Source of the DNA: Sipunculus nudus
Taxonomy: Eukaryota; Annelida; Sipuncula; Golfingiida; Sipunculidae
Reading direction: 5' to 3'
Assembly: GCA_026874595.1 (NCBI GenBank)
Contig: CM049318.1
Coordinates: 43,998,456-44,062,455 of the forward strand
DNA: 64,000 nt
Positions 525 through 64,000 of the stretch are shown here, one piece after another. A model generated the notes under the pieces. The model searched no databases and was not told the DNA's origin. It saw only the letters and a program-made list of their open reading frames with translations. The translations under genes were made by a program, and so were the position numbers. The stretch's first letter is position 1. Every line of letters starts with the position of its first letter.

Positions 525-2965
525 CAAGTGACCCATGGGTCATGACGCTCAGCTGCCAAGCATGACCTGTGACATCATGGACTGAGATTCACAACTTCCA
601 GTCAAATTTTGAAGAACCAATTTGCCAATTTGTTGAAAATTTTCTATGACAACAGAAATATATATCACCTATGTCTGGTTAAAACACAGTGAATTGATGG
701 TCTGAGGAAAATGCATGATTGTTAAGCTATCAGGAACTATTCCAACAGCTTGCTTGAAACCTGTCAGTCTCAAAGGAACACCACAAAGGGCAAATATAAG
801 ATCAAAATATATAGCAAAAATCAAGGAAATACATGCAAGAATTATTGAGAAACAGGTGCTTCTGTATGAATTTTTATTCAATACAAGCCAACTGTACTGC
901 ACTTTTATAAATGATGGTAATATTTATTCAGAAATATTTGACCCAATCCTTTACAAGATTACATAAATATACATCCAACTGCATTCACTTTAACTGTTCT
1001 TGAGATAATATGATCAAAAGGAATTAAAAGATGGTTGCCTGGTGGCCATATTGGACTTCTGACAAGTCTGAAATCAGACAACAAACATTCTCTAAATCGG
1101 ACCAAACATTAAAGAAAAATTACTGAAACTGCACTGAAGAAAGAATTTCTAAGGTGGCTAACTGGCAGACATAATGGATTTCTGACAAGTATGACATTTG
1201 ATATCCCACATTCTCCAACAAGAGACCAAACTTGGGGCAAATTATCCAGTAATGAATGCCCAGAATAATTCAAAAGGCATGTCCAGGCCCTTATATCAGA
1301 TTTATAGATATGCAATTGTAAAAAGTGTAAGTCCAATATTTTTTATTATCACTCTGCTTTTCAATGGGGTCAGCAGGGTAGGTAAACTGCCAAACCTGAA
1401 AGAAAAGAAATGCAGAAAGCATGACTAAGAGTCTTGAAATAAAACAAAAAGCCGTCCTAAATCAAGGTAGACATCCACATATTATGAGAACAAACACTTG
1501 CTTTTATATGTGGTGATATATATTAAAATATTCAGATATCTAGGAAACTAAGTTTATTGCTAGGATTCCATAAAATAAACTGCAAAATGTTCCCATCATC
1601 TTATAAATCAGTAGCTAAACCTTAATACTATACTCTCATAGTCTTAATGCCTGGCTGAAGCATTCTGACAACAGTGTTTTTGTTATGAAGTAACGAGGTA
1701 CTTATCACTGAGCCTTATCACTTAATAGGCTGATACAAAAGGGAGTTATATGTCACCAGTGTCACTCACAATTACAGCCACACAGGGAGATGTACCAGCT
1801 GGAGTGGGATGGTTATATATACAAGAAAAATAGAGATGGTCTATAAAATAAGTAATTGTGAACATCCCTGACCTATGACCTTGGCCTTTTGCCCATATAT
1901 CAACTGGATTCTTTCTAAATGATGGGTAACTACTAACCACTTAAATCTGGTGTAATTACTTGGCAACCAATGGGTGAATAACTTTGACCTGCAACCTTTA
2001 ACCTGCTGACCAGCTGACCCCAAAATCAATAAGTTATTTATTCAAGCAAAAAGACCCATAAATATGAAGTTTGAGTCAAACTGAGTGATGCATAGATGTG
2101 GCATATGTGAAAGACTGAAGGTTTGGGTTGAACAGTTACACTTGAAATATGCTCACAAGCATTTAGAACAATTAAATATTGTGACCTTGACCTTTGACTT
2201 TTTGACCTCAACATCAATAGGCTTCTTCCCTTATTGGTAGGTAAGCCATATATGAGAGATGGAAGGTACAGATTGAAAAGTTTGCCTGAAAATGACTCCA
2301 CGCAAGAAGTGGGTGCTGTGAACTTGACCTTTGACCTCAAAATCAACAGGTCTTTTCCCCTGTTGGCAGAGAAGCAATATCAATGCTGGAAGGTTTGGAA
2401 TGAAAAGTCTAGCTTGAAATGTGTCCACAACCTTTTCAAAGAAGTGGATCCTGTGACCCTGACCTTTGACCTTGTGACCTCGAAATCTATAGGATTCTTC
2501 TCCAACTTAGTAGGTGAGCTATATGTGAAAAATTAAAGAATTGGAATGAAAGGGTTGGCTTAAAATGCATCCACAGGCTTTTCAAAGAAGAGGCTCCTGT
2601 GACCTTGACCTTTGACCTTTTGACCTCAAAAAAATTATGGTTCTTCCCCTGTTGGTAGGTGAGCTGTATGTGAAAGATGGAAGGTTTGGGATGAAAATTT
2701 TGTCTCAAAGAGTTATTTATGGGGGGTGCAAACACACCCCATAACTTCGAGAATATAGGTCGCAGTGACCTAATTTCAGGTTTTCAAGGAGATCTTTTTA
2801 TAACCTCTAAGACTGCATAGGGTTCATGGCCCTAGCCCCTACGGCTATGATTTGTGCCCTGCTAACGGACGGACGGCCGGCCGGACGGCTGGACGGACAG
2901 ACGGAAGGACGACGGACAAAGACCCATCGCTATAGCCCAGCATGACTTAAAGTCAGCTGAGCTAA
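525..2965 (+). mobile_element. Family I element, subtype c, apparently complete
   Basis: The 5' end CAAGTGACCCATGGGTCA contains a 14-bp perfect palindrome and is followed by GCTCAGCTG. The 3' end has AGTCAGCTGAGCTAA, whose TCAGCTGAGC is the inverse of the 5' arm (GCTCAGCTG plus the next base in other subtypes). A (GGAC)n-like tract lies at about 2868-2915. The interior holds tandem units with repeated TGACCTTTGACC motifs (about 2180-2630). A close relative is at 39170-41891, with one extra interior unit. The open frames inside are short and unconserved, so it is non-autonomous. Confidence 0.8.
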
Positions 2966-3239
2966 AAATCACATTTTTATAATGTAGAAGACGCCTTTAC
3001 ATTTGTCCTGATGAATGAAACAAACACCAAATACAGTATGTTACATATATTCCTTTATTTTATTCATCAGTCACTTACCTTACTGGATATGACTGGTCTC
3101 TTTCGACACCATGTCCGCCAGTTTGGACATGATTCAGTGAGATGAAAAACTTTTCAAGCAGTCGAAAATTAGAGGAAATTTAGAAATTAATAATTATTCT
3201 TGAATATTTTTGGAGGTCGTATAAATAGAGGGATCGAAC
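2966..3239. other. Unassigned intronic sequence
   Basis: AT-rich sequence between a family I 3' end and a family II fragment. I recognise no gene or repeat here. It does not continue the sequence left of position 525, so the element is not flanked by a simple target. Confidence 0.5.
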
Positions 3240-3398
3240 AATTGGATGAAATACGGTATGGTAAAATCACTCAATTCAATCTTTATCGTTCAGCCAAAAT
3301 TCATTCTTTAGAACCATAAAAGACAATTATTATAAGAATAATTCAGGGGATTATTCTTGTAAAATATTAAACAAATTGGCCTCAGTGGCGTCAGTCAA
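3240..3398 (+). mobile_element. Family II interior fragment
   Basis: The stretch with CAATTCAATCTTTATCGTTC and the following TATTATTCTTG-type segment is repeated at 17880-18000, 34800-34925 and 52590-52715 inside family II copies. Neither end is present; a family I 5' end interrupts it. Confidence 0.7.
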
Positions 3399-3578
3399 CA
3401 AGTGACCCATTGGTCATGACGCTCAGCTGACTGGGAAGAGATTTGCAAAAGGAAATTTTATCATCAGAATGGTAGTATATACCCATTCAACTGAAGCATC
3501 AAACAAATTAACCAACAGGCCAAGATTGTGTCTGTATTTATATATATCAAAAATAGAGAAAAAATGTGTAAACTTTAA
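3399..3578 (+). mobile_element. Family I subtype d, 5' 180 bp only
   Basis: The segment starts with CAAGTGACCCATTGGTCA (palindrome with one change) and GCTCAGCTGAC, then about 150 bp shared with 5728-5905 and 55908-56088. It stops in an A-rich site where a family II element begins. Confidence 0.8.
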
Positions 3579-5727
3579 CAAGGCCTACAGGCCTAATGCG
3601 AACCTGTGCATTGGGAAATACACCAGGTATAATGCTTCAATGCTGGACCATTACTTCTCATGTATATGAACAATGCAAGTACTAAACATTTTGAATAAGA
3701 AACAATTACACAAACATCACTGCTGAAATTCTGGCATGGGTGCACACAACACAAAAATGATTGTAGCTGGCACCACCAGTCTTGTATACAACAAAGCTAT
3801 CAGAGATATATACATATGCCCAATTTCAGACTGATATATCAAATTCCTCTGTAGAAATAAGCAGGCACATACACTGTGCAAAAGTCATTGTAGGTGGCAA
3901 CACCTGTCTTGTGAATGATAAAGCCATCATAGACACAAAGACAGGCCAAAATATCAGGCCAATACATCAGACTTACCTTGAATCTGATGCATGAGGCTGA
4001 CCAGGCTTAGGTGAGAAAGGCAGTTGCCATGAGTGAACTGTGACAAATTTTCTAGCTAGATCAGGCTACTGCACTAAGTGAACTCATGACCTGCACCTGG
4101 CTAGACTGAGTGAACTTTCGACCTGTACCTGGCTTCACTGAGTGAACTCTTGACCTGTTGCATAATCTGACACAGTTGGTAGTCCACATGCAGCCCTGAG
4201 GGGCATGACACCCATAAGGTGATCACATGGTGGCCATGAGGTGTTCACATGTCACCCATGAGGTGATCACATGCTTTGTGCTTGGCTGCACTGACTGAAC
4301 TCTTGACCTATATCTGGCTGCACTGAATGAACTCTTGATCTGTTGCCAAATCTGAAACAGTCAGCAGTTTCTCAACCTATTTAAAGATACAAACACAATC
4401 TTGGCCTGTTGGTCAATCTGTTTACACATACTGAAAGACTTTGGCTAAAATGCTTTTTTTCAAGCTGACATATTCATAAACTTATTATCAAAATATCTAA
4501 AATAACAAAAGATGCAGTTCTTTCATTGTTTAAGGTCCAATAAATCTGCCAAAAATCATTCAAGTAAACTTTAACAAAGGCCACCTAAGAATAATTTTTG
4601 TGCAATGTTACAGAAGTTATAATTGAAACAACAATTTTGTAGAAGAACAGTTTTGCAGTCCTCTGTTTGAAAAAGACATAATAATGGCCATAAGGCCAAC
4701 TTAAGCTTTTCTGATATGATTGAAATAACCATGTCGTAGGATAATTCTTTTGAAAAATTGAAAGATTCAACTTGACAGTTTCATCAAACACATTTTACGC
4801 TGAAATAGGCTAAAATTGCGAGGTTTTTGCTAATAAAAAACAGGTCAATGTAGATGGCAGCACAAAATCTGCAACTTCAAATATCAGTCATGTGACCAAC
4901 ATTTGCACAATACTTGGTAATGCTAGCTTCTGTCATTTCTGAGATTACTATGTCAGTATGCTTAATTGGCCAAATGACTGTTCAAATTTGTGTAACACAA
5001 CTTAAATTGATCAAATGCAAACCATTTGAACAAACTTGAAAGAGCTTGCATCTGGGATCATTTTTGTAAAATATTGAACAATTTGGCTGGACAGTTTACA
5101 AGAAGAAGACTTTTAAAGGTTTTTAAGCTTTTTCCCTATAAAATCTAAGTAAATGCAGATAGCAAAAAAATAAGCTGAATCCCACAACATTTGATATGTG
5201 ACAGATTATTGCATAAAATCTGGGGATGGTAGTTCTTGCTATTCCTGAATAATTATGGGTTAATATACAGATGACCAATGACCCCCATACATAAAAAAGT
5301 CCATGCAGGTGGCGCCACCAATACCTGAATTTCATATATGACTCATGTGACTAACACTGGCATAAAATTTGGTGATGATAGCTCCAGCCGTTTCTGAGAC
5401 TGTCATTTTAGTATGCTTTTTTGGGACAGATGACTAGGTTCAACTTCCTGTAACTCAACCAAAATTCACCAAACTTGAACCATTCAAACAAACTTGAGAG
5501 AGATGGTATAAAAGATTATTTCTGTGTAATATTAAACAATTTGGCTTGAGTGTTTCAGAGGAGAAGATTTTTAAAGGTTTTTTAGCTGTTTCTCTATCCA
5601 CCTTTTCAGATGGCTAATTTTTTGCATTAAATTTCATGATACTAGCAATAGTTGTTTTCGAAATAGTATGGGTAAACGACAACGACAGACAATGCCAAAT
5701 CATCGCATTAGCTCACAGGTTTGCTAA
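3579..5727 (+). mobile_element. Family II element, complete (2149 bp)
   Basis: The 5' end is CAAGGCCTACAGGCCTAATG followed by GCGAACCTGTG. The 3' end is CACAGGTTTGCTAA, the inverse of the 5' arm with one mismatch. The interior has repeats of ATGAGGTGATCACATG near 4195-4275, several modules with TTTGAACAAACTTGA, and the palindrome GGTGGCGCCACC at 5308-5319. A new family I 5' end follows the terminal CTAA with no intervening base. No transposase-like frame is visible. Confidence 0.8.
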
Positions 5728-6658
5728 CAAGTGACCCATGGGTCATGACGCTCAGCTGACTGGGAAGAGATTTGCAAAAGGAAATTTTATCGTCTGAATG
5801 GTAGAATATAACCACTGAACTGAAGCATCAAACAGATTAACCAACAGGCTGAGATTGTGTCTGTATTAATATATCTCAATAGAGAAATAATGCGTAAACT
5901 TTAAAAAAAATACAGGTGGCTCCACCAGTCTGCAGAAATCTTATAAACACACTTAATGGTCAATATCCATGCAAAGAAGCATGGTGGTCTCTGGATTAGT
6001 TGTTCAGATACTTCAGCTTTTGTATCAGATTTTCCATTATTCTGAGGGATACTTTGAAGTCCTATAGCTTGAAGGATATGGGTAACAGAGACCTTATTTC
6101 AGGTTTCCACAGACACTTTTCATGGGCCTCCTTGCATGACAAGAATGAAGATTCTAGCTCCAGTTGTTACAATTTGTACTCTGTTGACAGATAACCACAT
6201 CTTTAAAGGTCTCAAAAATAGACAAAATAATTCGTAAAAATTTGAAAAAAATAGAGTTGGCGCACCCATTCTGCTGAAACTGATGGAACAGGTCATGATC
6301 AATATGTATGCCAAAAATCATGAGCATCAGTGTTGTAATTATTGAGATACTGGAGTTTTTGTATCAATTTTTTTCATTATTCTGGGGGGGGGGGGTTACT
6401 TTGGAGCCATACAGCTTAATGGATATGGGTAACAGAGACCTTATTTCAGGTTTCCATGGAGATTTTTCATGGGTCTCCCTGTGTGTAAAGAATGGAGATT
6501 CTATGTCCATTTGTTATGATTTGTGCCCTGTTAACAGATGTTAATATCTTTAAAGGTCCCAAAAATAGAGAAAAATTCGTAATAAAACCCAAACAAATGC
6601 AGGTGGTGCCACCAGTCTGCATAAACTGATGAAACACTCCATGATCAATATCCATGTA

Positions 6659-9413: not shown

Positions 9414-10730
9414 ATGTTAACAATTTTGGTGATCTCTGCATTAGATGTTTAGATACTTCAGCTTTTGTATCAAATTTTCCATTATTGTGAGCTGTACTTT
9501 GGAGAGTGCCATAGCTCAAAGGATATGGCTAACAGAGACCTAATTTCAGGTTTCCATGGAGACTTTTCATGGGTCTCCCTGTGTTTCAAGAATGAAGATT
9601 CTAGGTCCAGTCATCACGATTTGTACCCTGTTGACAGATAAATACATCCTTAAATTAAGGTCTCGAAAAAGAGAAAAAAAAAATTGTGAAAATTTGAAAA
9701 AATACAGGTGGCGCAAACAGTCTGCCAGAACTAATTGAACACCCCTTGATCAATATGTATGCCAAAAATCATGACCATCAGTGTTGTAGTTATTGAGGTG
9801 TTGCAGTTTGTTTTTATCAAATTTTCCATTATTCTGGGGGGGGGGGGGGGGGGGGTAAATGGGAGCCCCACAGCTCAAAGAGTATGGGTAACGGAGACCT
9901 TATTTCAGGTTTCCATGGAGACATTTCATAGGTCTCTCGGTGTGTCAAGAATGAAGATTCTAGGTCCAGTCTTTACAATTTGTGCCCTGTTAACAGATTT
10001 TCACATTTTTAAAGGTCTCAAAAATAAAGAAAAAAAATCGTAAAAAATCAATTAATACAGGTGGCGCCACCAGTCTGCCAGAATTAATCCAACACCTCAT
10101 GATCAAAATGTATGCAAAAAATCATTGCCATCAGTGTTGTAGTTATTGAGATACTGCAGTTTTTGTATCAAATTTTTTCATTATTCTGGGGGGTATTTTG
10201 GAGCCATACAGCTTAAAGGATATGGGTAACAGAGACCTAATTTCAGGTTTCCATGGAGACTTTTCTTGGGTCTCCCTGTGTGTCAAGAATGAAGATTATA
10301 GGTCCAGTTGTTATGATTTGTGCCCTGTTAACAGATGTTCATATCTTTAAAGGTCTAAAAAATAGAGAAAAATCCGTTAAAAAAACCCCGAACAAATACA
10401 GGTGGTGCCACCAGTCTGCAGAAGCTGATGAAACAATCCCTGATCAATATCCATGTAAACAATTATGGTGATCTCTGCATTAGATGTTTAGATACTTCAG
10501 CTTTGTATCAAATTTTAAATTATTCTGAGCTGTAATTTGGAGTGCCATAGCTCAAAGGATATGGATAACAGAGACCTAATTTCAGGTTTCCATGGAGACT
10601 TTTCATGGGTCTCCCTGTGTGTCAAGAATGTAGATTCTAGGTCCAGTCGTTACGATTTGTACCCTGTTGACAGATAACTACATCCTTAAAAGGTCTCAAA
10701 AAAAGAGAAAAAAATTGTGAAAATTTGAAA

Positions 10731-12260
10731 CAAGGGACCCATGGGTCACGGCGCTCAGCTTAAGTTTGAAATTTTTGCAAATGCAAAATATTCTATTTTA
10801 ATGTTTTTCTTTTATATAAGCATATGAGAAGCTAACAGGAAAGAGGCCCTTCTACTTGGTTATAGTAAAGTTCTAAATATATGATTGCAAACTAATACTC
10901 TGACAAGACTGTCATGAAGAAAAACAGTAAAAGTATTGAGATACTGTGATGCATAAGAAAAATTAACAGATGGACAGGCCAGTAGACAGAATGGACTGAT
11001 ACCTTTATTTCACTTTCAAAGGAAGTTTATATATATATAAGTTTATATATAAGCCTATTATTTAAGCAAATCCACTTTTTTCATTAAAATAGTTTTTATC
11101 TGATTAATTTTTTTTATTTACAAGTTTTATAAATTTGTGATAAAAATCACTGAAAATATAAGTTAAAATATTAGAATTCTAAGTTGCAATCATTATATAT
11201 CCAAAGTGTAGCTCATATTGGGTCATATTATGCATACACATATATTTTTATTATTTTTAAATCACAAATGTTTAAACTGAATTTAAAAGAAAATAATGCC
11301 ACAACATGGAATCCACAAGATAATTCCTTGAATCACTATTAAAAAGTTTTGCACACTGCAGTTTTCAGTACATGCTTAATCTTATTCACCGAAATAAAAT
11401 AAAAGATTCTGCAAATTTGGTAAAATAAAAACATCTTTACAAATAAAGTATACACACTGTTGGTTGAATGAGGGACAAACAATATCATTATGCTAATTAC
11501 AATCTCAGCTATAATTTATTACTGGAATTAATAGTCCATTTCACACCTGGTGAAGTTTTTACTCTTCTCAAGTAAGGAATTACTTATCTGATGAACATCC
11601 ACACTTTCATAGCAATACACCACTTTGTGGACACAATTAAATGTGCACTTTTATCATTGTAACCCTGGTGGTAAATACAAAATCTAAAATGTAGCATTGC
11701 ATAGCCAAGAATAAAATTAAATACAGAAAATTATAACATTCATCTAGTTAATGCACCATCTGGGGGTGGGGGGTGCAGGGCAGAGGGGAAGCCTGCTAGT
11801 AGTGGCAAAGCTGAGCCAAGGCAAGCTGCCTGGGGTGGGTTACATAATGCAAGGGAAGGCTGTACTACTATGTGGGCTAGAGGTAAACAACACTTGACAT
11901 GGTGTATGAAAACTTGAATAAAAGCTACTCTTTTCAATCAATTTCTTTGAAATTTCTGATTTTAAAAGATTAAATCCTTATTGATATATGCTGTGAAAAT
12001 TAAATCAACAGTGCTTACAGGGAAAAAACGTGCCATTGCCAAAGTTGGACAAAATTTAAGGTATTGTTTTTTTATTTATGCTAATAACTTGAAAAATTTG
12101 CAAAATTCAGATCTAATTTTGGGTAAACAATAGAATCTTGATTAAATAAAGTTATATTCCTGAAAAAAAGTCTCCAGCTTCAGCAATTCTCATCTTAGGT
12201 GAGCAAATATATTTCTTGATTTTTTAAAAAGTGCATTATGTTTGGTCCCATAACTTAAAA
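10731..12260 (+). mobile_element. Family I subtype e, 3' part missing
   Basis: The 5' end is CAAGGGACCCATGGGTCAC followed by GGCGCTCAGCT. The interior matches 37340-38880 closely (for example CACTTTGTGGACACAATTAA and TGCCTGGGGTGGGTTACATA). It is cut off by a new family I start at 12261. Confidence 0.75.
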
Positions 12261-14033
12261 CAAGTGACCCGTGGGTCATGACGCTCAGCCGACTGACGTG
12301 TTGACAATATGTCCTTGCACAGACAACTAATTAAGGTAATGTAGGTGCCATCATGGTTATGCATATTAGCTTAAGTTCATCAGGACCCATAAGCACAACA
12401 AATCTAATGACAACCCAACCGGCCTTTCATGAGGAATCTGGCAATTTGTGTGTATTTTGCTTTATTTCTAGGGTGCTCAAACATACCCCAAAACTCTGAG
12501 AATATAGTTCACTGTGACCCAATTTTAGGTTTCTGGGGAGACCTTTTGAGGAACTCTCAGGATGTCAAGTAAGAAGATTCTTGGCCCAAAGGTTATGGTT
12601 TGTGCCCTACTTTGGTATCAAATTTTTAATTATTTATTTTATAAGCCCCATAGCTCAGAAAATATGGGTAACAGAGACCTAAATACACGTTTCCAAGGAG
12701 ATTTTCATAGACCTCCCTGGATTTTAGGTTAGAAGATTCCAGGTCCAATGTTTATGATTTGTGCCCTGCTTTTGTATCAAATATTTTATTATTCTGGGAG
12801 GTACTTCTGAGCCCCATAGCTTGAATAATATGGGTACCAGAGACCTAATTCCAGGTTTCCCAGGAGACTTTTCATGGTCCTCTCTGCAGGTTGAGACAGA
12901 AGATTCTTAGTCCAGTGGTTATGATTTGTGCCCTGTTAACAGATGACCACATCTTTTAATGTCTCAAAAAAAGAGAAAAAAATTGTAAAAAAAAAAATTA
13001 AGGTGGCACCACCAGTCTGCAGAATAGATGAAAAACTGCATGATGAATATTCATGCAAGGAATCATGGTGATCAATGCATTAGTTGTTCAGATACTTGAG
13101 CTTTTGTATCAATTTTTTTATTATTCTTGGGGGTGGTTCGGAGCCCCATAGCTTGAAGAATATGGGTACCAGAGACCTAATTCCAGGTTTCCAAGGAGAC
13201 TTTTCATGGACCTAACTGGATGTAAAGTTAGAAGATTCCAGGTCCAGTGCTTACGATTTGTGCCCTGTTACCAGATGACAGCATCTTTGGAGGTCTCAAA
13301 AATAAAGAAAAAAAATTGTAAAAAAAAATTAAGAAAAATACAGGTGGCGCCACCAGTCTGCAGAAACTGATGTAACACCCCATGATAAATATCCATGCAA
13401 AGACTCATGGTGATCAATGCATTAGTCATGTTCAGATATTTGAGCTTTTGTATCAATTTTTTATTATTCTGGGGAGGTACTTCGGAGACCGTTAGCTTAA
13501 AGAATTTGGGTAACAGAGACCTAATTCTAGGTTTTTCAAGGAGACTTTTCATGGACCTAACTGGATGTAAAGTAAGAAGATTCCAGGTCCAGCGTTTACG
13601 ATTTGTGCCCTGTTAACAGATGACGGCATCTTTTGAGGTCTCAAAAATAGAGAAAAAAAATTGTTTAAAAAAATCGAAAAAATACAGGAGGCGCCACCAG
13701 TCTGCAGAAACTGATGAAACACTCAATGATCAATATCCATGCTAAGAATCATGGTGATCAATGCATTAGTTGTTCAGATACTTGAGCTTTTGTATCAAAT
13801 TTTTCATTATTCTGGGGGGGTACTCCGGAGCCCCATAGCTTGAAGAATATAGGCAACAGAGACCTAATTACAGGTTTCCAAGGGGATTTTTAATGGACCT
13901 CTCTGGATGTAAAGTTAGAAGATTCCAGGTCCAGTGGTTACGATTCGTGCCTTGTTAACGGACAGACGTCCGGCCATCGGACGGACAAAGAGTGATTGCT
14001 ATAGTTCAGATGACTTATAGTCAGCTGAGCTAA
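12261..14033 (+). mobile_element. Family I element with tandem modules, complete (1773 bp)
   Basis: The 5' end CAAGTGACCCGTGGGTCA has one palindrome mismatch; the 3' end is AGTCAGCTGAGCTAA in a hairpin with a TAT loop. The interior carries partial modules (12470-12960) and three full modules of about 340 bp starting near 13000, 13341 and 13686. GGTGGCGCCACC is at 13343-13354 and the 3' GGAC tract near 13960-13985. Confidence 0.8.
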
Positions 14034-14649
14034 AAATCTTTTTGAGATGATATGCAGAAGACCAAAATTTCATGGCTTTTAGCAATTTCTGGAAACTCAT
14101 GACCAGGTAAGTACTTTACAAAACAGAAGCACATAAACCAATTTCCTCTAGGCTGTTTTTATTTTCATATTTGATAGTTCAAAGACAAACCTTGCCAACT
14201 TTCCTTAAAAAGATATATATGAGTCAAAAGCTCAAATAATGAAATGGTCCCTTTTTTTTGCTAAAGAGGAAATTCTCACCCTTTCCAAATCTTGTGGGGT
14301 TAAAAATTTAATATTTTAAAATACATTACATTAATTTACTTAAATGATATCACATTCTACAAGTCCTCTAACAACAGTAAAACATGTATACATCTTATTA
14401 ATAAGTTCAAACACAGATGATTTTATTATCGATTAAGATACAAATATCTTAACTTGGTTGTTACTACTGAAACACTGAGACCTATTGAATATTGTTATTA
14501 TATACGGATATAAACTTAGCAAAACAAACAAGCAACTTTCTGTTTTGTAGACTCACTATCAATGATATGGCACTTTTCTTCTTAAACATCAATAAACCTA
14601 TGAATGACCATGTATAGTTGTGTAAAAATTCAGATTTTTTTTTGGTTGA
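14034..14649. other. Unassigned intronic sequence
   Basis: AT-rich sequence with no coding or repeat signal that I recognise. It contains several A/T runs and no good splice-bounded open frame. Confidence 0.5.
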
Positions 14650-20564: not shown

Positions 20565-20587
20565 CACAAACAAGACAGGACAATACT

Positions 20588-41891: not shown

Positions 41892-41951
41892 AAAAACGTG
41901 CCGTGGCCAAAATTTAAGGTACCAATTTTATATTTTTGCCAATATATAAAA

Positions 41952-50876: not shown

Positions 50877-51298
50877 AAGGGACCTATGGGACACGTCGCT
50901 CAGCTGAATTTTGGAAAATTTTAGCAAATGCAAAATATACTTATTCCTTTTATAAAAGCTAAGAGGAAATTGCCCTGCTAACTGGTGATAATCGAATATT
51001 AAATATATGTTAACCGAACTGATACCGTGCCATTTTTTGGACTATATCTAAGATGCAGGAGCCTCTCATGATCAAATACTTCTAAAAGTATCATTATTTC
51101 AACTTTATGACAGAAATATGTCATAAGATGATTAGCTTAAGTAAAATAATGCACATTTAATTAAAAACTGAAAGAAAATGCTGTAAGAAATTAAAATTTT
51201 CTATTTTCAAATAAGCATAATAAATCTGATAAGAATATATTGTACTGTATAATACATCACAAATGGGTTTGAAACCACTTAATAATGCAATAAGGAAA

Positions 51299-54200
51299 CA
51301 AGGCCTACAGGCCTAATGCGAACCTGTGCATATGGATATACACCAGGTATAACGCCTCAGTGCTGAACCACTACTTTTCATATATATGAACAATGCAAGA
51401 ACTAAACATTTTGAATCAGAAACAATGACACAAACATCACTGCTGAAATTCTGGCATGGGTGCACACAACACAAAAATTATTGTAGGTGGCACCACCAGT
51501 CTTGTATACAACAAAGCTATTTGACATGTACACATATGCCCAATTTCAGGCTGATATATCAAATTCTTCTGTAGAATTAAGCAGGCAAATACACTTTGCA
51601 AAAGTCATTGTAGATGGCGACACCTGTCTTGTGAACAAGAAAGCCATAAAAACACATAGACAGGTCAGAATATTAGGCCAATACATCAAACTTACCTTGA
51701 GTCTGATGCACGGGGCTGACCAGGCTTAGGTGAGAAAGGCTGTTGCCCTGAGTGTACTGTGACAAATTACTGGCTCAGGCTACTGCACTGAGCGAACTCT
51801 TGACATTGCACCTGGCTAGACGGAGTGAATTTTTGACCTGTACCTGGCTGCACTGAGTGAACTCTTGACCTGTTGCATAATCTGAAACAGTTGGCAGTCT
51901 GCCAAAGCTATAAATAAATCCAGGCTGACCTTTTGCCTATTGCCAAATCTTAAATAGTAGCCCCACAATTGCATAAGCTCACAGATTGGCTCCATATGCA
52001 GCCCTGAGGGGCATGACACCCATGAGGTGATCACATGATACTCATGAAGTGATCACATGCTACCCATGAGATGATCACATGCTGCCCATGAGGTGATCAC
52101 ATGCCTTGTGCTTGGCTGCACTGATTGAACTGTTGACCTATATTTGGCTACACTGAATGAACTCTTGATCTGTTGCCAAATCTGAAACAGTTGGCAGTTT
52201 CTCAACCTATTCAAGAAACGTACACAATCTTGGCTCGCCTCTGGGATCATTTCTGTAAAATTTGGACAATTTGGCTTGACTGTTTACAAGAAGAAGACTT
52301 TTACAAGTTTTTTTTCAGCTTTTTCCTTGTAAAATCTAAGTAAATGCAGATAGCAAAAATAAGATGAATCCATCAACATTTGATATGTGACAGATAACTG
52401 CATAACATTTGGGGATGGTAGCTCCTACTATTCCTGAGAAATTATGAGTTAGTTTACAGATGATATGTTATATCATAAATCTACATTTTGTAAAAGCTTT
52501 TAAAAACATTCTTGTCAATATTTTCCATAGATAACCTGAAATCTAAATGTCTAGAGGCATAATGTAATGGATGCTGATGAACATATATGGTAAAATGACT
52601 CAAATCAATCTTTATAATTCAGCCAAATTCATTTTTTGGAACCATAAAAGACAATTATTATAAGAATGATTCAGGGAATTATTCTTGCAAAATATTAAAC
52701 AAACTGGCCTCAGGATCATCATCAGTCGAAAAACGTTTTGTAGGTTTATAACTCATATGGGAAAATACAACAAAATGGCAAAGTTCACCTTTCCATAACT
52801 CAGCCAAAAGTCATTGAATCAAAACCATTTGAACAAACTTAAATTATCAACATGTAAGGATAATTAATGTGTGGGATTTAAGAATTTGGCCAGGTGGTTT
52901 TGGAGTAGAAGATTTTTGTTCCCATATAGCTAACATGGGCTGTTATGGCATATGACTAAATTCAGCTTCCCATAACTCAGCCAAAAGTCACTGAACTGAG
53001 ACCATTTGAACAAACTTGAATTATCAACATCTAAGGATAATTAATGTGTGAGATTTAAGAATGTGGCCCAGTGGTTTTTGAGAAGAAGATTTTTGTAACC
53101 ACTTAGCTAACATGGGCTGTTATGGCATATGACTAAATTCAGCTTCCCATAACTCAGCCAAAAGTCACTGAACTGAGACCATTTGAACAAACTTGAATTA
53201 TCAACATCTAAGGATAATTAATGTGTGAGATTTAAGAATTTGGCCCAGTGGTTGTTGAGAAGAAGATTTTTGTAGCCACTTAGCTAAAATTGGCTGTTAT
53301 GGCATATGACTAAATTCAGCTCCCCATAACTCAGCCAAAAGTCACTGAACTGAGACCATTTGAACAAACTTGAATTATCAACATCTAAGGATAATTAATG
53401 TGTGAGATTTAAGAATTTGGCCCAGTGGTTTTTGAGAAGATTTTTGTAGCCACTAAGCTAAAATGGGCTGTTATGGCATGTGACTAAATTCAGCTTCCCA
53501 TAACTTAGCCAAAAGTCACTGAACTGAGACCATTTGAACAAACTTCAGAAAGCACTACCCTAGGATCATTTCTGTGCGATATTAAACAATTTGGCCATCT
53601 CTTTGAGAGAAGAAGTTATTTGTAGCTGTCAGTGTGAAACGGGCACTGATGACCTCGTACAAAAAAGGCCGATGCAGGTGGCGCCACCAATACCTCAATT
53701 TCAGATATGACTCATGTGACCAACATTGGCATAAAATTTGGTGATAGCTCCAGCCTTTTCTGAGATTTTAATTTTAGTGTGCTTTTTTGGACAGATGACT
53801 AAGTTCAACCTCCTGTAACTCAGCCAAAAATCTCCGAAATGGAACCATTCAAACAAACTTGAGACAGATTGTTCCAGGGATCATTTCTGTCAAATATTGG
53901 ACAATTTGGCAGGACAGTTTCTGAGAAGAAGATTTTTACAGCTTTTTTTGCTTTTTTCCCTATTAAATCTAAGAAAATGCAGTTTAAAACTAGATGTGTC
54001 GGAACGACACGAATGCCCCCGCCTGGGGCAAATTAGAAACATTTGTAAAATTTTGAAAAATTTTTTAAGTTCAGGAGGTGTTGTTTGGTCAGAAGGTAGG
54101 TCAACAGAGCAAAATGCAAACTCGATCTGTAACAGGTCATTATCAAGCAACACACCAAAAATCAGGCCAGTATATGCAGGCATTGATAATAAAAAGTCCA

Positions 54201-55327: not shown

Positions 55328-55683
55328 AAAAACAGGTGACGCCACCACTTTTCTGGAACTAACAAAACTAGTCATGGTCAATATCCAAGGCAAGATTCAT
55401 GACAATCAATGTATTAATTATCAAGATATTGGAGGTTTTGTATCAAATTTTTTTTATTGTAGAGGGTACTTACAATACCCACAGCTCGAAGGATATTGGT
55501 CACAATGACCTAATTTAAGGTTTCCAAGGAGTTTTTTCATGGGCCTTCCTATATTTTTAGTTACAGGATTCTAGGATTAGTGGTTACGATTTGTGCCCTG
55601 CTAACGGACAGCCTGACAGTCAGACAGACAACGGACAAAGAAGGATTCCTATACCTCAGTTGACTTACAGTCAGCTGAGCTAA

Positions 55684-55907
55684 AAAATACCAGAAAAGGA
55701 TTCTCTGGATCATTTTACCCTAGAATTCCTGTATTAGTTGGCCCTCTATGTCAAAGATGAGAAATGTGGTATTTTTGCTATTTTAGTACTGTTTTGGTGG
55801 CCATTTTGTTTTATGCTTATTACCTAAAAAAATATTAAGGCTGACAGTGGGCCAACCTTATTATTTTTTGCACCCAACATATTGGTGAACAAAATCCACA
55901 AAGAAAA
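55684..55907. other. Short unassigned stretch
   Basis: 224 bp between two family I copies; nothing recognised. Confidence 0.4.
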
Positions 55908-56088
55908 CAAGTGACCCATGGGTCATGACGCTCAGCTGACTGGGAAGAGATTCGCAAAGGAAATTTTATCATCAGAATGGTAGTATATACCCATTCAACT
56001 GAAGCATCAAACAGATTAACCAACAGGCCAAGATTGTGAATGTATTTATATATCTCAAAAATAGAGAAAAAAATGCATAAACTTAAAA
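55908..56088 (+). mobile_element. Family I subtype d, 5' 181 bp only
   Basis: Same segment as 3399-3578 and again followed by a family II 5' end at the same internal position. Confidence 0.8.
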
Positions 56089-56281
56089 CAAGGCCTACAG
56101 GCCTAATGCGAACCTGTGCAATGAGATTACACCAGGTATAATGCTTCAATGCTGGACCATTACTTTTCAAGAACATGTGTAACATGTATATGAACAATGC
56201 AAGTACTAAACACTTAGAACAAGAAACAATTAAACAAACATCACTGCTGCAATTTTGGCATGGGTGCACACAACACAAAAA
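56089..56281 (+). mobile_element. Family II 5' part
   Basis: The 5' end is CAAGGCCTACAGGCCTAATG and GCGAACCTGTG. It is cut after CACAACACAAAA by a family I start; the uninterrupted text is at 3745-3765. Confidence 0.8.
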
Positions 56282-56604
56282 CAAGGGACCTATGGGTCAC
56301 GGGGCTCAGCTGTTATATATGATAAAAAAATATGATTTAGAAATGAGGCACATGCTGGTTTTATGTGGTAATATAAATAAGCTGTATTATGAGTTGTTGT
56401 TGTTTAGCTCATGTAAGTTTTTGAAAGTACCTTTGGAGACAGGAAAGAGGATTAATTTCATTTATTTTATTAACAAATGGAGTGCGATTGTCACAAAGAT
56501 TTTGACTTGGCCATATAACTTATAAGCAGAACATATAATATAAGAGTTTAACTATTTATTAAAAAAATTACAAATATTCTCCCAAATATAATTTTTATTA
56601 AAAA

Positions 56605-59600
56605 CTAGACATTTCTTGGCACTGCAGGTGCCAGAGTATCCCCAGACATAGTAGGCCCCCCTCCTACAAGAACAGACCCCCATTTTTAGCAGCATATACT
56701 GACACTTGGCATATTTATTGTTTATTCCATCTAACGATCCACAATCTTGTTGAAGATGTTGGTCCTGTGACCTTGATCTTTTTAAAGATGTGTCCTGTGA
56801 CCTTGACCTTTGATCTCATAACCCCAAAATCAATTTGGGTCTTGCTTTTCCAATGGGACACATGCAAGTCAAGTTTGAAATCTATACATCAATAAAGCAG
56901 GAATTATCATCCAGAAACTTATTTTTGGACAGATGGCTCCTGTGACCTTCACCTTTGACCTTGTGACCTCAAAATTGATAGTGTTCTTCCTCTCTTGGCA
57001 GGAGAACTATATGTGCAAGATGAAAGATATGAGATGAAATGTTTGGCTGAAAATGCATCCACATCTTTTTAAAGATGTGTCCTGTGACCTTGACCTTTGA
57101 CCTCATGACCCCAAAATCAATTTTGGTCTTACTTTTCCAATGGGACATATACAAGTCAAGTTTGAAATCCATACATCAATAAAAGCAGGAATTATCATCC
57201 AGAAACTAATTTTTGGACATATGGCTCCTGTGACCTTCACCTTTGAACTTGTGACCTCAAAATTGATAGGGGTCTTCCACTCTTGGCAGGTGAACTATAT
57301 GTGCAAGAGGAAAGATCTGAGATGAATTGTTTGGCTGAAAATGCATCCACAATCTTTTTAAAGAGGTTTCCTGTGACCTTGACCTTTGACCTCATGACCC
57401 CAAAATCAATTTGGGTCTTGCTTTTCTAATGGGTCAATAACAAAGCCAAGTTTGAAATCCATACATCAGTGAAAGAAGGAATTATCATCCAGAAACTAAT
57501 TTTTGGACAGATGGCTCCTGTGACCTTCACCTTTGACCTTGTGACCTCAAAATTGATAGGGGTCTTCCACTCTATGGCAGGTGAACTATATGTGCAAGAT
57601 GAAAGATCTGAGATGAATTATTTGGCTGAAAATGCATCCACAATCTTTTTATAGAGGTTTCCTGTGACCTTGACCTTTGACCTCATGACCCCAAATTCAA
57701 TTCCGGTCTTGCTTTTCCAATGGGTCAAATACAAGTCAAGTTTGAAATCCAAACATCAATAAAAGAAGGAATTATCATCCAGAAACTAATTTTTGGACAG
57801 ATGGCTCCTGTGACCTTAACCTTTGACCTTGTGTCCTCAAAATTGATAGGGTTCTTCCTCTCTTGGCAGGTGAACTATATGTGCAAGATGAAAGATCTGA
57901 GATGAAATTTTTGGCTGAAAATGCATCCACATCTTTTTAAAGATGTGTCCTGTGACCTTGACCTTTGACCTCATGATCCCAAAATCAATTTGGGTCTTGC
58001 TTTTCCAATGGGACATATATAAGTCAAGTTAGAAATCCATACATCAATAATAGCAGGAATTATCATCCAAAAACTAATTTTTGGACAGATGGCTCCTGTG
58101 ACCTTCTCCTTTGACCTTGTGACCTTAAAATTGATAGGGGTCTTCCACTCTAGGCAGGTGAACTATATGTGCAAGATGAAAGATCTGAGATGAATTGTTT
58201 GGCTGAAAATGCATCCACAATCTTTTTAAAGAGGTTTCCTGTGACCTTGACCTTTGACCTCATGACCCCAAAATCAATTTGGGTCTTGCTTTTCCAATGG
58301 GTCAATAACAAAGCCAAGTTTGAAATCCATACATCAGTAAAAGAAGGAATTATCATCCAGAAACTAATTTTTGGACAGATGGCTCCTGTGACCTTCACCT
58401 TTGACCTCAAAATTGATAGGGGTCTTCCACTCTTGGCAGGTGAACTATATGTGCAAGATGAAAGAACTGAGATGAATTGTTTGGCTGAAAATGCATCCAC
58501 AATCTTTTTATAGAGATTTCCTGTGACCTTGACCTTTGACCTCATGACCCCAAATTCAATTCCGGTCTTGCTTTTCCAATGGGTCAAATACAAGTCAAGT
58601 TTGAAATCCAAACATCAATAAAAGAAGGAATTATCATCCAGAAACTAATTTTTGGACAGATGGCTCCTGTGACCTTCACCTTTGACCTTGTGACCTCAAA
58701 ATTGATAGGGTTCTTCCTCTCTTGGCAGGTGAACTATATGTGCAAGATGAAAGATCTGAGATGAAATGTTTGGCTGAAAATGCATCCACATCTTTTTAAA
58801 GATGTGTCCTGTGACCTTGAACTTTGACCTCATGATCCCAAAATCAATTTGGGTCTTGCTTTTCCAATGGGACATATATAAGTCAAGTTAGAAATCCATA
58901 CATCAATAAAAGCAGGAATTATCATCCAGAAACTAATTTTTGGACATATGGCTCCTGTGACCTTCACCTTTGAACTTGTGACCTCAAAATTGATAGGGGT
59001 CTTCCACTCTTGGCAGGTGAACTATATGTGCAAGATGAAAGATCTGAGATGAATTGTTTGGCTGAAAATGCATCCACAATCTTTTTAAAGAGGTTTCCTG
59101 TGACCTTGACCTTTGACCTCATGACCCCAAAATCAATTTGGGTCTTGCTTTTCTAATGGGTCAATAACAAAGCCAAGTTTGAAATCCATACATCAGTAAA
59201 AGAAGGAATTATCATCCAGAAACTAATTTTTGGACAGATGGCTCCTGTGACCTTCACCTTTGACCTTGTGACCTCAAAATTGATAGGGGTCTTCCACTCT
59301 TGGCAGGTGAACTATATGTGCAAGATGAAAGGTCTGAGATGAATTGTTTGGCTGAAAATGCATCCACAATCTTTTTAAAGATGTGTCCTGTAACCTTGAC
59401 CTTTGACCTCATGACCCCAAATTCAATTCCGGTCTTGCTTTTCCAATGGGTCAAATACAAGTCAAGTTTGAAATCCAAACATCAATAAAAGAAGGAATTA
59501 TCATCCAGAAACTAATTTTTGGACAGATAGCTCCTGTGGCCTTGACCTTTGACCTTGTGACCCCAAAATTTCTATGGATCATCCACTATTGGCAGATAAC

Positions 59601-60658
59601 TTATATGTGCAAGATGAAAGGTCTGAGATGAATTGTTTGGCTGAAAATGCATCCACAATCTTTTTAAAGATGTGTCCTGTGACCTTGACCTTTGACCTCA
59701 TGACCCCAAAATCAATTGGAGTCTTGCTTTTTCAATGGGACATATATAAGTCAAGTTTGAAATCAGTACATCAATAAAAGCAGGAATTATCATCCAGAAA
59801 CTAATTTTTGGACAGATAGCTCCTGTGGCCTTGACCTTTGACCTTGTGACCCCAAAATTTATGTGGATCATCCACTATTGGCAAGTGAGCTATATATTCA
59901 AGATGGAAGACCTGGGATGAAAGTTTGGCTTAAAATGCATCCACAGTATCTTTTAAAATGCCAGTCCAGTGACCTTGACCTTTGACCTCATGACCCTAGA
60001 ACCTATAGGGTTCTTACTTTAGTGGCAGGCCATACATAAGTCATGTTTGAAATCCATATGGCTATCAACACTGGAGATATCATAAGAAGTGTGTGATTTT
60101 CACCATATATGGCAATATTCAAGGTCAAGGCCACTATCATAGGAAAGGTCATGACCCCAATTTAAATAAGCATCATCCCATAACCCATACCTATGTATAT
60201 GCATAATATAAAAGAAATCTGTCCATTAGTTTTTGACTTATAATGCTCACAATGATGTAAGGTGGGAATTTTGGGGGTATTAAACGGCACGAAAACAAGT
60301 AAAAAATAATTGGTGGCGCCACCAGTTTCTGGAACATGACAACCCTATCCATGATCTTCCATCAACTTGATTTTGGGATAAATCCATGCAAGATTTCTTG
60401 AGATATTAAAGAATTTGTGGGATTTTCCCGAAAATTGGACCTATTCATGGTCAAGGACACTCTCCTAGTAAAGGTCATGACCTCATTTTAAATAGGCGTT
60501 GTCCTCTTTCCCATATCTATACATATACCAAGTTTGGTAAAGTTCCGTGAAATATTTTTTGGGTTATCGCACCAACAAGATTCATATGCGGCGGCGGCGG
60601 CGGGGGCGGCGGGACCGGTATGAAAACATAGTATCCCCCGCTTTGTCTGGGGATACAA
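56605..60658 (+). mobile_element. Family III element, complete (4054 bp), satellite-filled
   Basis: The 5' end is CTAGACATTTCTTGG with hairpin TGGCACTGCAGGTGCCA, then GTATCCCCAGACA at 56636-56648. The 3' end has the exact inverse TGTCTGGGGATAC at 60644-60656, in a hairpin with GTATCCCC, then AA. Comparison with empty copies at 24676-24700 and 44160-44185 places it between A and T without target duplication. GGTGGCGCCACC is at 60312-60323 and a CGG-rich run at about 60590-60615. Confidence 0.9.
56760..60010 (+). repeat. 290-bp satellite array, about 11 units, with trimeric higher order
   Basis: Units begin at a CCTGTGACCTTGACCTTTGA stretch near 56797, 57079, 57370, 57660, 57950, 58238, 58520, 58808, 59097, 59387, 59677 and 59968. 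From 57079 to 59677 three variants alternate in fixed order, giving a repeat of about 865 bp. Each unit contains two TGACC(T/C)TTGACC-type blocks. Open frames of up to 153 codons here are by-products of the repeat. Confidence 0.9.
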
Positions 60659-61218
60659 TAATAAGAGAATAGTATGATTTATTCCAAAAAAAAAATATAA
60701 CTGAAATGATTTTTAAAATAATATTAAAGAATATATTCATGAATGCATTCATTAATACATTTTGAAAGTATTTGCACTGGTATTCATATACATAAATGCT
60801 AAAAAATACATGCTGTAAAAATTAAATCCACAGTACTTACAGGAAAAAAACGTGCCATGGTCAAAGTTGGGCCAAATTTAAGGTACCAATTTTTTATTTT
60901 TGTTAATATTTAAAAAAAAATTAAAAGATTTTGATCTAATTTTGCATATACAATTTAATTTTGATTAATTAAAGTTATATTACTGGAAAAAAGTCCATAG
61001 CTTTAACATGTTTTGTGTTAAGTGATCAAATACCTTTCCTGATTTTTTACACAATGCATTATATTTGGGCCCATAACTTTTTAAATTTACATAATACAGA
61101 CATAATTTCTGGAATGTACATAGGAACTATATAGAGGAAAAATTATGGTAAATATGAGGAAAAACAGATGAGTGGTTTTGATGTTAGGCAGTCCTGAAGT
61201 GTAAAAAAAGGTTTTTAA

Positions 61219-63606
61219 CAAGGGACCTATGGGTCACGACGCTCAGCTGTTATATATGATAAAAAAATATTATTTAGAAATGAGGCACATGCTGGTTTTG
61301 TGTGGTAATAAATATAAGCTGTATTATGAGTTGTTGTTGTTTAGCTTATGTATGATTTTGATAGTACCTTTGGAGACAGGGAAGAGGATTGATTTCATTT
61401 ATTTTATTAACAAATGGAGTACTATTGTCACACAGATTTTGACTTGGCCATATAACTTATAAGCAGAACATATAATATAAGAGTTTAACTATTTATTAAA
61501 AAAAGTTACAAATATTGTCCCAAATATAATTTTTATAAAAAATAATATGAGAATCATATGATTTTTTTAAATGAAATATAACTGATATGATTATTAAAAT
61601 AATATTAAAGAATATATTCATGAATGCATTCATGAATACATTTTGAAAGTATTTGCACGAGTATTCATATACTTTTATTTTTACCTGAATTCCTATTCTT
61701 TATGCAAGAAATTTTATAATGGAGTACATAATCATATTCGTATTTAAATACATTTACAAAGTATTCGCACCATGTCTGGTATTTATTCAGTTTCACCAAC
61801 CAATGATGTTGAGAATCCAGAATATACCAAATTCACACATTTAAATAATGATCATAAGTACCTGGTTTTATGGCTTTTATTTATATTAAAAAATAACTGT
61901 AAAAAATTCATTTTGGACTTATTTCACATCAATGTACACAATAGACACAGTAGGAATCTAGATTAATATTATCAACTGCATCTTTGTCTATCATTAATTT
62001 CCTTCATATGATCCCTAATGATTAGTAATGAATAATATGATTTACTTCTTTATCATTAAAATTGAACTGTAAAATGCCATAGGTGACTGCATGGTGTTAT
62101 TTGGAATATGTGACATTCTACCCATCGATACAAGATTCTTATATCATCAGTAACTGCAAGTTAATTTCCTGTTATTATAAACTAACAAATTCCTTTTCTA
62201 TTTTTCTTTAATTTGTTATTAAAAACCAATAAAAAATTATTAATTTATTGTTTATTGTTATGTTGTTGGTTAAAACTACTAGATGAGTTGGGTTGGACAC
62301 CTGGATCAACTGTGGCTGGCCATAAGCTGCCTGGATTCCTGTATGCCTCGCCTCAAGCGTGCATAATTTGATGAAAGGTCAACAAGGTCAACATACAGGT
62401 GACTCAAGAGGGGCTGGAGAGAGCCAAAGTCTGACAGGGTCTCATTAAAAACATTAATAAAAGCTACAATTTTTGGCCAATTTCTTTTTAGCTTTCTAAA
62501 CTAAAAAGCTGAAATGCTTATGTGTGCATGATATGAAAATTATATCAACAGTGCTCACGGGAAACAAACGTGCCATGGTCACAGTTGGGCAAAATTTAAG
62601 GTACTAATTTTATATTTATACTAAATAAAATTTGAAAAATTCAGAACTAATTTTGGGTATTCAATTGAATCTTGATTAAATAATGTTACATCCCTGACAA
62701 AAAAATCTCTAGTTTCAGCAATGCTCTTGTTAAGGGAGTAAACATATTTCTTGATTTTTTACAAAGTGCATTATGTTTGGGCCCATAACTTAAAACAATT
62801 ACACAATACTGACATCATTCTGGCATGTGCATAGAGAATGAAAAATATGTATATTATTTATGATTAAAGTCAGATCAGTGGTTTTGATATTAGGCAGTCT
62901 TGAAGTGTAACAATGGGTTTTTAATGGAAAAATGAAGTTTTTCATTAATATCTCGAAGGTATTAACTCCTAGTGACCAAATTCTTGGCATGGTAGGGCAT
63001 TTTGGAGACATCTAACTGTATGCCGAATTTAAGGAACTTAGAGCTGAAGCTGGGGAGCTGAGCTCTTGCAAACTGCATAACACTAGCTTGATGTAAACAA
63101 TATGTTACATGGTGCAAGAAAACTTGATTAAAATCTACAGTTTTTGATCAACTGGTTTCAAATTTTTTATGTTAACAGTTGAAATACTAACAAAAACATG
63201 CTGTGAAAATTAAATCCACAGTACTTACAGGAAAAAAACGTGCCATGGTCAAAGTTGGGCAAAATTTAAGGTACCAATTTTTTATTTTTATTAATATTTT
63301 AAAAAATTTAAAAGATTTTCATCTAATTTTGGGTATACAATTTAATTTTGATTAATTAAAGTTATATTACTGGAAAAAAGGTCCATAGCATTAACATTTT
63401 TTGTGTTAAGTGATCAAATATCTTTTCTGATTTTTTACAAAATGCATTATGTTTGGGCCAAGAACTTTTTTAAATTAAATAATACAGACATAATTTCTGG
63501 CATGTACATAGGAACTATATAGAGGAATATTTATGGTAAATATGAGGTAAAACAGATGAGTGGTTTTGATATTAGGCAGTCCTGAAGTGTGAAAATAGGT
63601 TTTTAA
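61219..63606 (+). mobile_element. Family I subtype b unit, 3' tail missing (2388 bp)
   Basis: It starts CAAGGGACCTATGGGTCAC and runs without insertion through the full interior, including two AAAACGTGCC blocks. It stops at GGTTTTTAA, where the next identical 5' end starts. The 3' hairpin and GGAC tract are absent. Confidence 0.85.
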
Positions 63607-64000
63607 CAAGGGACCTATGGGTCACGGCGCTCAGCTGTTATATATGATTAAAAAATATGATTTAGGAATGAGGCATATGCTGGTTTGGTGTGGTTATAAA
63701 TATAAGCTTTATTATGAGTTGTTGGTGTTTAGCTTATGTATGATTATGATATTATCTTTGGAGACAGGTAAGAGGATTGATTTCATTTATTTTATTAACA
63801 AATGGAGTACTATTGTCACACAGATTTTGACTTGGCCATATAACTTATAAGCAGAACATATGATATAAGAGTTTAACTATTTATTAAAAAAATTACAAAT
63901 ATTGTCCCAAATATAATTTTTTGTTAAAAATAACAAGAGAATCTTATGATTTTTTAAAATGAAATATAACTGAAATGATTATTAAAATAATATTAAAGAA
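63607..64000 (+). mobile_element. Family I subtype b unit, runs off the window
   Basis: Third head-to-tail subtype b start, CAAGGGACCTATGGGTCAC and GGCGCTCAGCTG; the sequence is the same as 61219 onward. Confidence 0.85.

Follow-up and report, generated by a model that had tools for sequence, protein, structure and literature searches.

What are the repeated elements that crowd a 64,000-nucleotide stretch of the Sipunculus nudus genome, and why do their ends all point the same way? The stretch, hereafter the window, is CM049318.1, positions 43,998,456-44,062,455 (contig C13 of our set), in a genome of 1.4265 Gb in 153 contigs. A sequence-only reading of this DNA had distinguished four or five families of non-autonomous elements, I to V, and likened their terminal design to that of Helitrons and Helentrons. 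We find that families I to V all belong to the non-autonomous Helentrons known as HINEs and lie on the window's minus strand, that family I shares its ends with an autonomous partner, and that the strand chosen at insertion is set regionally, the strand of the replication fork being the likeliest cause. Taken as a whole, we consider this account probable.

The four arms on which the families had been defined were present where they had been described. Counting exact arm matches of families I to IV only, the window contains 26 ends (5 + 10 for family I, 4 + 3 for family II, 1 + 1 each for III and IV, respectively on what was first read as the 5′ palindrome side and on the tip side). In every one of these families a palindrome or hairpin lies outside the arm at one end, with the inverse of the arm at the other. 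When one copy of each tip was folded as DNA, the claim that in I, III and IV this inverse forms one strand of a hairpin was borne out (z = -4.9, -3.0 and -4.2, respectively). No tip hairpin was seen in the single copy of family II that was folded (z = -0.3). The palindromes at the opposite end fold less strikingly (z = -1.1, -1.2, -1.6 and -2.5 for I to IV, one copy each).

A profile search of the whole genome gave 143 matches to PF14214 (Helitron_like_N), or 129 Rep loci after removal of 14 adjacent fragments. On contig C17, a Rep open reading frame (ORF) of 2342 aa is followed downstream by GTCAGCTGAGC, which is the family I arm, then by the palindrome TGACCCATGGGTCA and CTTGTT. Two family I tips lie upstream of this ORF, a 14-base tip with one mismatch and an exact tip 724 bp further out, both carrying the tip hairpin and a GTCC-type microsatellite. 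The family I arm, with at most one mismatch, and a palindrome were also found downstream, in the sense of Rep, at 7 of 10 further Rep loci that we fetched; among these seven 3′ ends we distinguish three or more versions of the sequence, the majority of which close with CTTGTT or CTAGTT. No known 3′ end was found on the downstream side of the other three (L023, L025 and L026), the first of which has a one-mismatch arm without the family I palindrome. Since the Rep ORF sets the direction, both on C17 and at the seven loci, the elements begin at the T(n)AG tip and finish at the palindrome side, which places the window copies on the minus strand. This reverses the earlier assignment of 5′ and 3′ ends, which we reject: the supposed 5′ palindrome is a 3′ stem-loop and the supposed CTAA tip is the T(n)AG start of the 5′ end. 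A palindrome outside the arm had been thought non-standard; it looked unusual because the elements were read on the wrong strand, and corresponds to the ordinary Helentron 3′ palindrome in the available passages of PMC4067079 and PMC7492417.

The C17 ORF contains PF14214 (E = 8.7e-28) and the PIF1 helicase domain PF05970 (5.7e-23), with a weak match to the endonuclease domain PF03372 (0.0004, below the cut-off). An ORF on C11 encodes a second type of Rep, with PF03372 at 4.6e-13 and an OTU domain. The translations of the two types both show an HUH motif (HIH and HAH) and have GDFN and GTLID segments in common. The ends of the Rep elements of C4, C11 and C13 (L009-L012 and L015-L016) were not found, their common parts being the ORF, plus an upstream stretch in two of them. 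Shared ends and ORF direction establish the partnership with family I, and we infer that family I, at least, is mobilised by a Helentron that has these ends and encodes a Rep(HUH)-PIF1 helicase-endonuclease. The coding HUH Rep/helicase element with matching ends that the sequence-only reading had envisaged, and the autonomous Rep-helicase-endonuclease partner expected of a HINE, was thus found for family I alone (on C17, and by its 3′ side at the seven loci); none was seen for II to V among the Rep loci fetched, the ends of these families not having been searched for near Rep genes genome-wide. The earlier suggestion of one enzyme system for every family stays conjectural. The two C17 tips (35639639 and 35640363, L017) are two successive 5′ tips on an autonomous Helentron, and resemble the multiple 5′ termini of Fusarium Helitrons.

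Read in element sense, the plan is a T-run, a 5′ subterminal inverted repeat (subTIR), which is the arm, next to its own inverted copy (the tip hairpin in I, III and IV), a GTCC-type microsatellite, satellite-like tandem repeats, a 3′ subTIR, a 3′ palindrome, CTTG or CTAG, and TT. The subTIRs are about 11-15 bp long and occur at both ends in families I to IV, and at the 3′ end only in family V. The 5′ ends consist of T(n)A and the arm, or of T-rich sequence and the arm in family III; the 3′ palindrome lies outside the 3′ subTIR in the window families, the direction being set by the Rep ORF for family I; and all window 3′ ends read CTTG or CTAG, then TT. Microsatellite and central tandem repeats are clearest in families I, III (tandem repeats) and IV (both). 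Ts flank most ends, in the window and at the Rep loci, and insertion within TT without target site duplication, as defined for HINEs, may apply here. Together with a Rep partner carrying family I ends, this module plan supports the view that these are non-autonomous elements of Helentron type. The like layout that had been ascribed to family V is upheld by a fifth 3′ end at 53988-54030 (minus strand; palindrome TGTCGTTCCGACA, then CTAGTT), which probably belongs to that family.

The terminal design has already been published for Cg_HINE of the oyster Crassostrea gigas, including families unrelated in sequence. In the available part of PMC7492417, Cg_HINEs have subTIRs of 11-12 bp, a GTCY/GTCC microsatellite and oligo-T/TT sites, with families unrelated in all modules; likened by description, our elements share with them the 5′ subTIR and adjacent inverted repeat, the microsatellite, the satellite-like central repeats, the 3′ subTIR and palindrome, and the oligo-T/TT site. 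They also resemble HINE/DINE-1 elements and their Helentron partners, as portrayed in passages of PMC4067079, in subTIRs, 3′ palindrome, microsatellite or tandem repeats, T-rich sites and a Rep-helicase-endonuclease partner. In the same passages, however, mite HINEs carry 3′ subTIRs that are palindromic in themselves and sit some 38-60 bp inward of the 3′ end, while the 3′ subTIR of family I is about 24 bp from the end. Helitron2 elements are similar in their asymmetric terminal inverted repeats, some members having a palindrome or hairpin at either end (sections of PMC4067079 and PMC5148889; the former gives palindromes at both ends), but have a Rep/helicase without endonuclease. Membership of Helitron2 is rejected on the endonuclease (match weak and below the cut-off in the C17 partner, clear in the C11 ORF, as given above). 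A canonical Helitron, which has 5′ TC, 3′ CTRR and a hairpin some 11 bp inward and inserts between A and T, is ruled out by the 5′ T(n)A and arm and the 3′ CTTG/CTAG-TT; of the 3′ ends found here, CTAG alone fits CTRR.

The end motifs of families I, II and IV, which our genome-wide counts cover, occur far more often than chance would allow. Exact copies in 1.43 Gb number 39,632 for the 15-base family I tip, 6,055 for the family II tip, 1,375 for the family IV tip and 3,551 for the complete 35-base family I 3′ end, vs. 0 for the control in each case (for the family I tip, the reversed pattern).

All 26 exact ends in the window are on the minus strand, and comparison of the window with itself by BLAST gave 481 direct vs. 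3 inverted matches over 60 bp. Since the strands of the family I tip are balanced genome-wide (19,964/19,668), this one-sidedness is local. We mapped orientation mostly on a single chromosome, C1, using the tips listed for families I, II and IV and the family I 3′ ends; two family II tips beyond 14.93 Mb, where the list stops short on one strand, were excluded from the pair, runs and shift tests. Family I tips number 92 minus vs. 2 plus at 0-1.2 Mb and 20 plus vs. 8 minus at 1.2-1.74 Mb, and in this first part of C1 the blocks are shared by families II and IV, whose ends differ. All 23 tips at 1.70-3.10 Mb in lists complete for both strands are minus, as are 28 of 28 listed tips of I, II and IV at 4.46-5.64 Mb.

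As a control we used long interspersed nuclear elements (LINEs), located by two reverse-transcriptase motifs with 1,396 and 1,143 matches genome-wide; this control is sparse, usable but thin (of the matches listed, 51 and 72 were kept on C1, and 49 and 28 on C2 excluded; exact matches only for the first motif). A tRNA-derived short interspersed element and DDE_3 were dropped as controls, with just 22 matches each. Among pairs 20-100 kb apart on C1, orientation was the same in 125/138 (I with II), 16/16 (I with IV), 16/18 (II with IV), 36/48 (I 3′ ends with II) and 26/37 (I 3′ ends with IV), vs. 36/63 for LINE with HINE and 6/10 for LINE with LINE; the cross-family counts overlap and the pairs are not independent. 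Agreement with the majority of the other families within 100 kb was 18/20 for IV, 37/40 for II and 17/17 for I 3′ ends, vs. 7/14 for LINEs (within 200 kb, 21/29, 56/65 and 27/36, vs. 10/18). On C1, then, families with different ends agree in strand over tens of kb, and over about 1 Mb near its start, whereas LINEs mostly do not follow. If these domains hold genome-wide, they would distinguish Helentrons from the LINEs around them.

The number of switches in orientation along C1 tells the same story. With one tip kept per 20 kb, 42 switches were counted in 178 tips over 0-14.9 Mb, vs. a shuffle mean of 85.0, and 0 of 10,000 shuffles gave a count as low; thinning to 50 kb (38 in 124, mean 59.6, 0/10,000) or 100 kb (30 in 82, mean 39.4, 223/10,000) left a deficit of switches. 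Five plus family I tips beyond 1.7435 Mb were excluded from this main test, and restoring them gave 44 switches in 166 tips (mean 80.7, 0/10,000). Family IV alone, over 70.7 Mb, gave 34 in 97 (mean 44.2, 157/10,000), while LINEs over all of C1 switched 62 times in 118 (mean 58.9). The merged C1 list counts some family I tips twice, and its switch count was not used.

Circular shifts, which preserve each list's own clustering, were applied to thinned nearest neighbours 20-150 kb apart. Family I agreed with II in 53/62 cases (reached by 0 of 97 shifts) and with IV in 21/22 (3/99); II agreed with I in 28/34 (9/177) and with I 3′ ends in 30/43 (4/99); IV agreed with I in 8/8 (10/177), with II in 10/12 (3/97) and with I 3′ ends in 25/34 (2/99); and the I 3′ ends agreed with I in 13/17 (20/177), with II in 21/32 (7/97) and with IV in 27/42 (10/99). 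Comparisons of HINEs with LINEs were at chance for II (18/36), IV (7/16) and I 3′ ends (16/30), as were those of LINEs with II (11/20), IV (7/17) and I 3′ ends (9/20); LINEs vs. family I gave 5/6 (34/177).

The copying of multi-family blocks by segmental or tandem duplication could also produce a shared orientation. Some tips do occur in pairs 200-400 bp apart, and at C7:48.53-48.59 Mb the spacing and scores of the Rep loci suggest a tandem arrangement. The spacing of tips in the 0.1-1.2 Mb domain is irregular, however, and within the repeat families of the window copies often match one another at no more than 60-80%, so that we regard duplication as very unlikely to account for the domains.

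For a check independent of the tips, we picked ten C1 pieces by coordinate from the mapped domains, of which seven, totalling 60,000 bases, were usable. The other three, at 0.60, 2.55 and 4.70 Mb (L042-L044), consist of satellite arrays; no DNA in them matches window elements, and they were excluded from the AT-skew test. In the seven pieces, element-like DNA amounted to 0 plus and 2,997 minus bases in the three from minus domains, and to 3,991 plus and 393 minus bases in the four from plus domains; L047 and L051 had none, and 155 bases in L046 are opposed to its domain. After masking of elements and tandem repeats, the AT skew, (T-A)/(T+A), was -0.073, -0.017 and -0.007 in the minus pieces and +0.042, +0.027, +0.032 and +0.039 in the plus pieces. 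Its sign thus fits the domain in 7/7 pieces, a complete separation of 3 vs. 4 with a label-permutation probability of 1/35. GC skew showed no pattern in these pieces. The arrays themselves consist of units of about 119, 31/68 and 56 bp (L042, L043 and L044) that fill nearly all of these pieces, which make up 3 of 8 coordinate-picked 10-kb pieces and are those nearest the contig start.

The amount of element DNA bears on the idea that clusters grow one-sided by nested insertion, elements favouring copies in their own orientation as targets. The window is indeed packed with elements and twice contains a composite of a family I and a family II 3′ end. Helitron2-like elements of Fusarium are reported to insert into themselves (PMC5148889), and the strongest domain (0.1-1.2 Mb) is dense in tips, with 94 in 1.1 Mb. 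Yet only 7,381 of the 60,000 bases (12%) in the seven coordinate-picked pieces are element-like, while families agree at 20-100 kb, the 0.1-1.2 Mb domain having been sampled only in the satellite array L042. Because of this low content, we judge nested growth to be quite unlikely. Target composition might matter instead, if domains differed in T-runs and elements needed T-runs on the sense strand. Runs of four or more Ts are indeed commoner on the domain-sense strand (508 vs. 397 on the other, summed over the seven pieces), but a 1.28-fold excess cannot alone yield 92 to 2 and may be an effect rather than a cause, making this explanation highly improbable.

A further alternative is that transcription sets the strand, either through insertion into the displaced coding strand of R-loops or through selection on sense and antisense intron copies. 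Transcription, too, creates AT skew, so the 7/7 agreement in skew fits this explanation equally well. Beyond the start of C1, moreover, agreement is found mostly below about 50 kb, which is the scale of genes and gene clusters. On the other hand, the one-sided runs of C1 extend over about 1 Mb (0.10-1.18 Mb, 92 to 2; 4.46-5.64 Mb, 28/28 of those listed), with a satellite array inside each (L042 and L044), and LINEs, which selection in introns should sort likewise, mostly do not follow. On balance we think transcription an unlikely cause, though a less far-fetched one than nesting, composition or duplication.

HUH enzymes cut and join single strands. A strand-specific process of some kind acting on single-stranded target DNA is, in our view, fairly likely to underlie the domains. 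The replication fork would offer such a target: of its two strands, the lagging-strand template is exposed as single-stranded DNA that Rep may nick and join, in which case orientation would record fork direction. To the right of an origin, where the plus strand is the lagging-strand template, elements would be plus; minus-to-plus boundaries would then mark origins and plus-to-minus boundaries termination zones. At human origins, T exceeds A on the plus strand to the right of the origin, and the polarity of the skew here agrees with this. Insertion into the lagging-strand template in particular remains a tentative proposal, one that we had held to be an even bet and lowered somewhat in view of the weak clustering past 7.55 Mb on C1 and of the five plus tips that break one stretch.

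A bacterial parallel exists in the IS200/IS605 elements (e.g. IS608), which, according to the available part of PMC5371812, prefer the lagging-strand template and have orientations that recapitulate replication; the link to our elements is one that we draw here. Those elements are bacterial and move by peel-and-paste, whereas ours are eukaryotic Rep-helicase elements with orientation domains, whose tie to replication is proposed. The domains appear to be new. They are undescribed for Cg_HINE in the available part of PMC7492417, which records copies in either orientation and no favoured segment of the chromosomes, and passages on barley Helitron targets (PMC5738225) have no bearing on orientation. 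Among the open-licence articles listed, judged by titles and the opening text of abstracts, none was about orientation domains of Helitrons or Helentrons.

Several results weigh against a regional choice of strand, or against the fork as its cause. Five plus family I tips at 2.05-2.23 Mb, in the 15-base list, interrupt the minus stretch of C1 at 1.70-3.10 Mb. When runs were counted by region, using one family I list and 20-kb thinning unless stated, 0-7.55 Mb gave 16 switches in 95 tips (mean 40.3, 0/10,000), but clustering was weak both at 7.55-14.93 Mb (26 in 69, mean 34.3, 296/10,000; 3,360/10,000 with 50-kb thinning) and at 14.93-28.87 Mb (26 in 71, mean 34.3, 264/10,000; 1,121/10,000 with 50-kb thinning). 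By these regional counts, the effect peaks towards the start of C1 and has a shorter range farther along. Several of the circular-shift tests are not decisive, among them family I vs. its 3′ ends (36/41, 11/99) and II vs. IV (18/24, 11/99), and family I vs. LINEs, from few LINEs, gave 15/19 (6/122). Neighbouring Rep-bearing loci, of which the genome has 129, do not share orientation (the same in 10/17 pairs 20-100 kb apart and in 3/9 pairs 100-200 kb apart), and the flanks of eight Rep elements have no clear AT skew in element sense (0.000, 0.011, 0.005, 0.150, 0.043, -0.019, -0.037 and 0.034). Sharp minus-to-plus and gradual plus-to-minus transitions, as expected of origins and termini, were not clear in the merged C1 list. 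One of the Rep flanks, L024, contains 1,890 bases of element DNA in the opposite sense.

If the domains hold genome-wide, they bear on how eukaryotic rolling-circle elements choose their target strand, a question testable from assemblies alone. Should the fork prove to be the cause, a HINE-rich genome would be a readable fossil record of germline fork direction, written in tens of thousands of copies, and the elements a eukaryotic counterpart of IS200/IS605.

The individual ends in the window, all on the minus strand, are as follows. One family I element spans 523-2966, with its 3′ end (palindrome and CTTGTT) at 523-557 and its 5′ tip hairpin at 2936-2962, which we take to be a pair. Other family I 3′ ends lie at 3397-3431 (subTIR, palindrome with one mismatch TGACCCATTGGTCA, and CTTGTT), 5726-5760 (palindrome TGACCCATGGGTCA) and 55906-55940, with variant 3′ ends at 10729-10760, 12259-12293 and 36713-36747, each with an inexact arm, and at 32140-32174 and 42230-42264. 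Family I 5′ tip hairpins are found at 14004-14034, 19518-19548, 20537-20563, 26590-26621, 33982-34013, 44105-44137, 46447-46478 and 55654-55686, and a 5′ tip at 41862-41894. The one at 20537 has no T-run before it, TCA replacing TAAAA after the arm on the plus strand, while those at 26590 and 44105 have microsatellites at 26540-26572 (ACGG, adjoining and inside the element) and 44039-44087. For family II there are 5′ tips at 19259-19273, 34449-34463 and 35836-35850, and 3′ ends at 3577-3608 (subTIR, palindrome AGGCCT..AGGCCT, CTTGTT), 23204-23235, 51297-51328 and 56087-56118. The family III element (56603-60661) has its 3′ end at 56603-56648, 289-bp tandem repeats at 56776-59996 and a 5′ tip hairpin at 60631-60656. 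The family IV element (48228-49270) has its 3′ end at 48228-48266, 302-bp tandem repeats at 48392-49186, a microsatellite at 49188-49220 and a 5′ tip hairpin at 49239-49265.

Two AT-rich palindrome matches on the plus strand (45318 and 62676) were judged not to be ends, as was a plus-strand inverted repeat at 2713-2717, the mirror image of 2744 on the minus strand. A family I 3′ end is followed 177-178 bp on by a family II 3′ end twice (3397-3608 and 55906-56118), forming a composite unit that may have been copied as one. Positions 16348-16544 are an inverted copy of an element fragment, the sole opposite-sense repeat match in the window besides a local inverted repeat (14693-15669) and short inverted arms.

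Elsewhere in the genome, C3:12.98-13.27 Mb and C14:19.23-19.30 Mb have dense reverse-transcriptase matches of equal or near-equal score, many in ORFs of about 969 aa and nearly all on one strand, and C2:24.965-24.995 Mb has eight reverse-transcriptase copies mostly about 3.9 kb apart; these clusters are perhaps LINEs in tandem arrays. The same tRNA-Lys-like stretch recurs on nine smaller contigs, and six equal-scoring DDE_3 matches occur on six others; these contigs (C61-C131) possibly derive from a bacterial symbiont or a contaminant.

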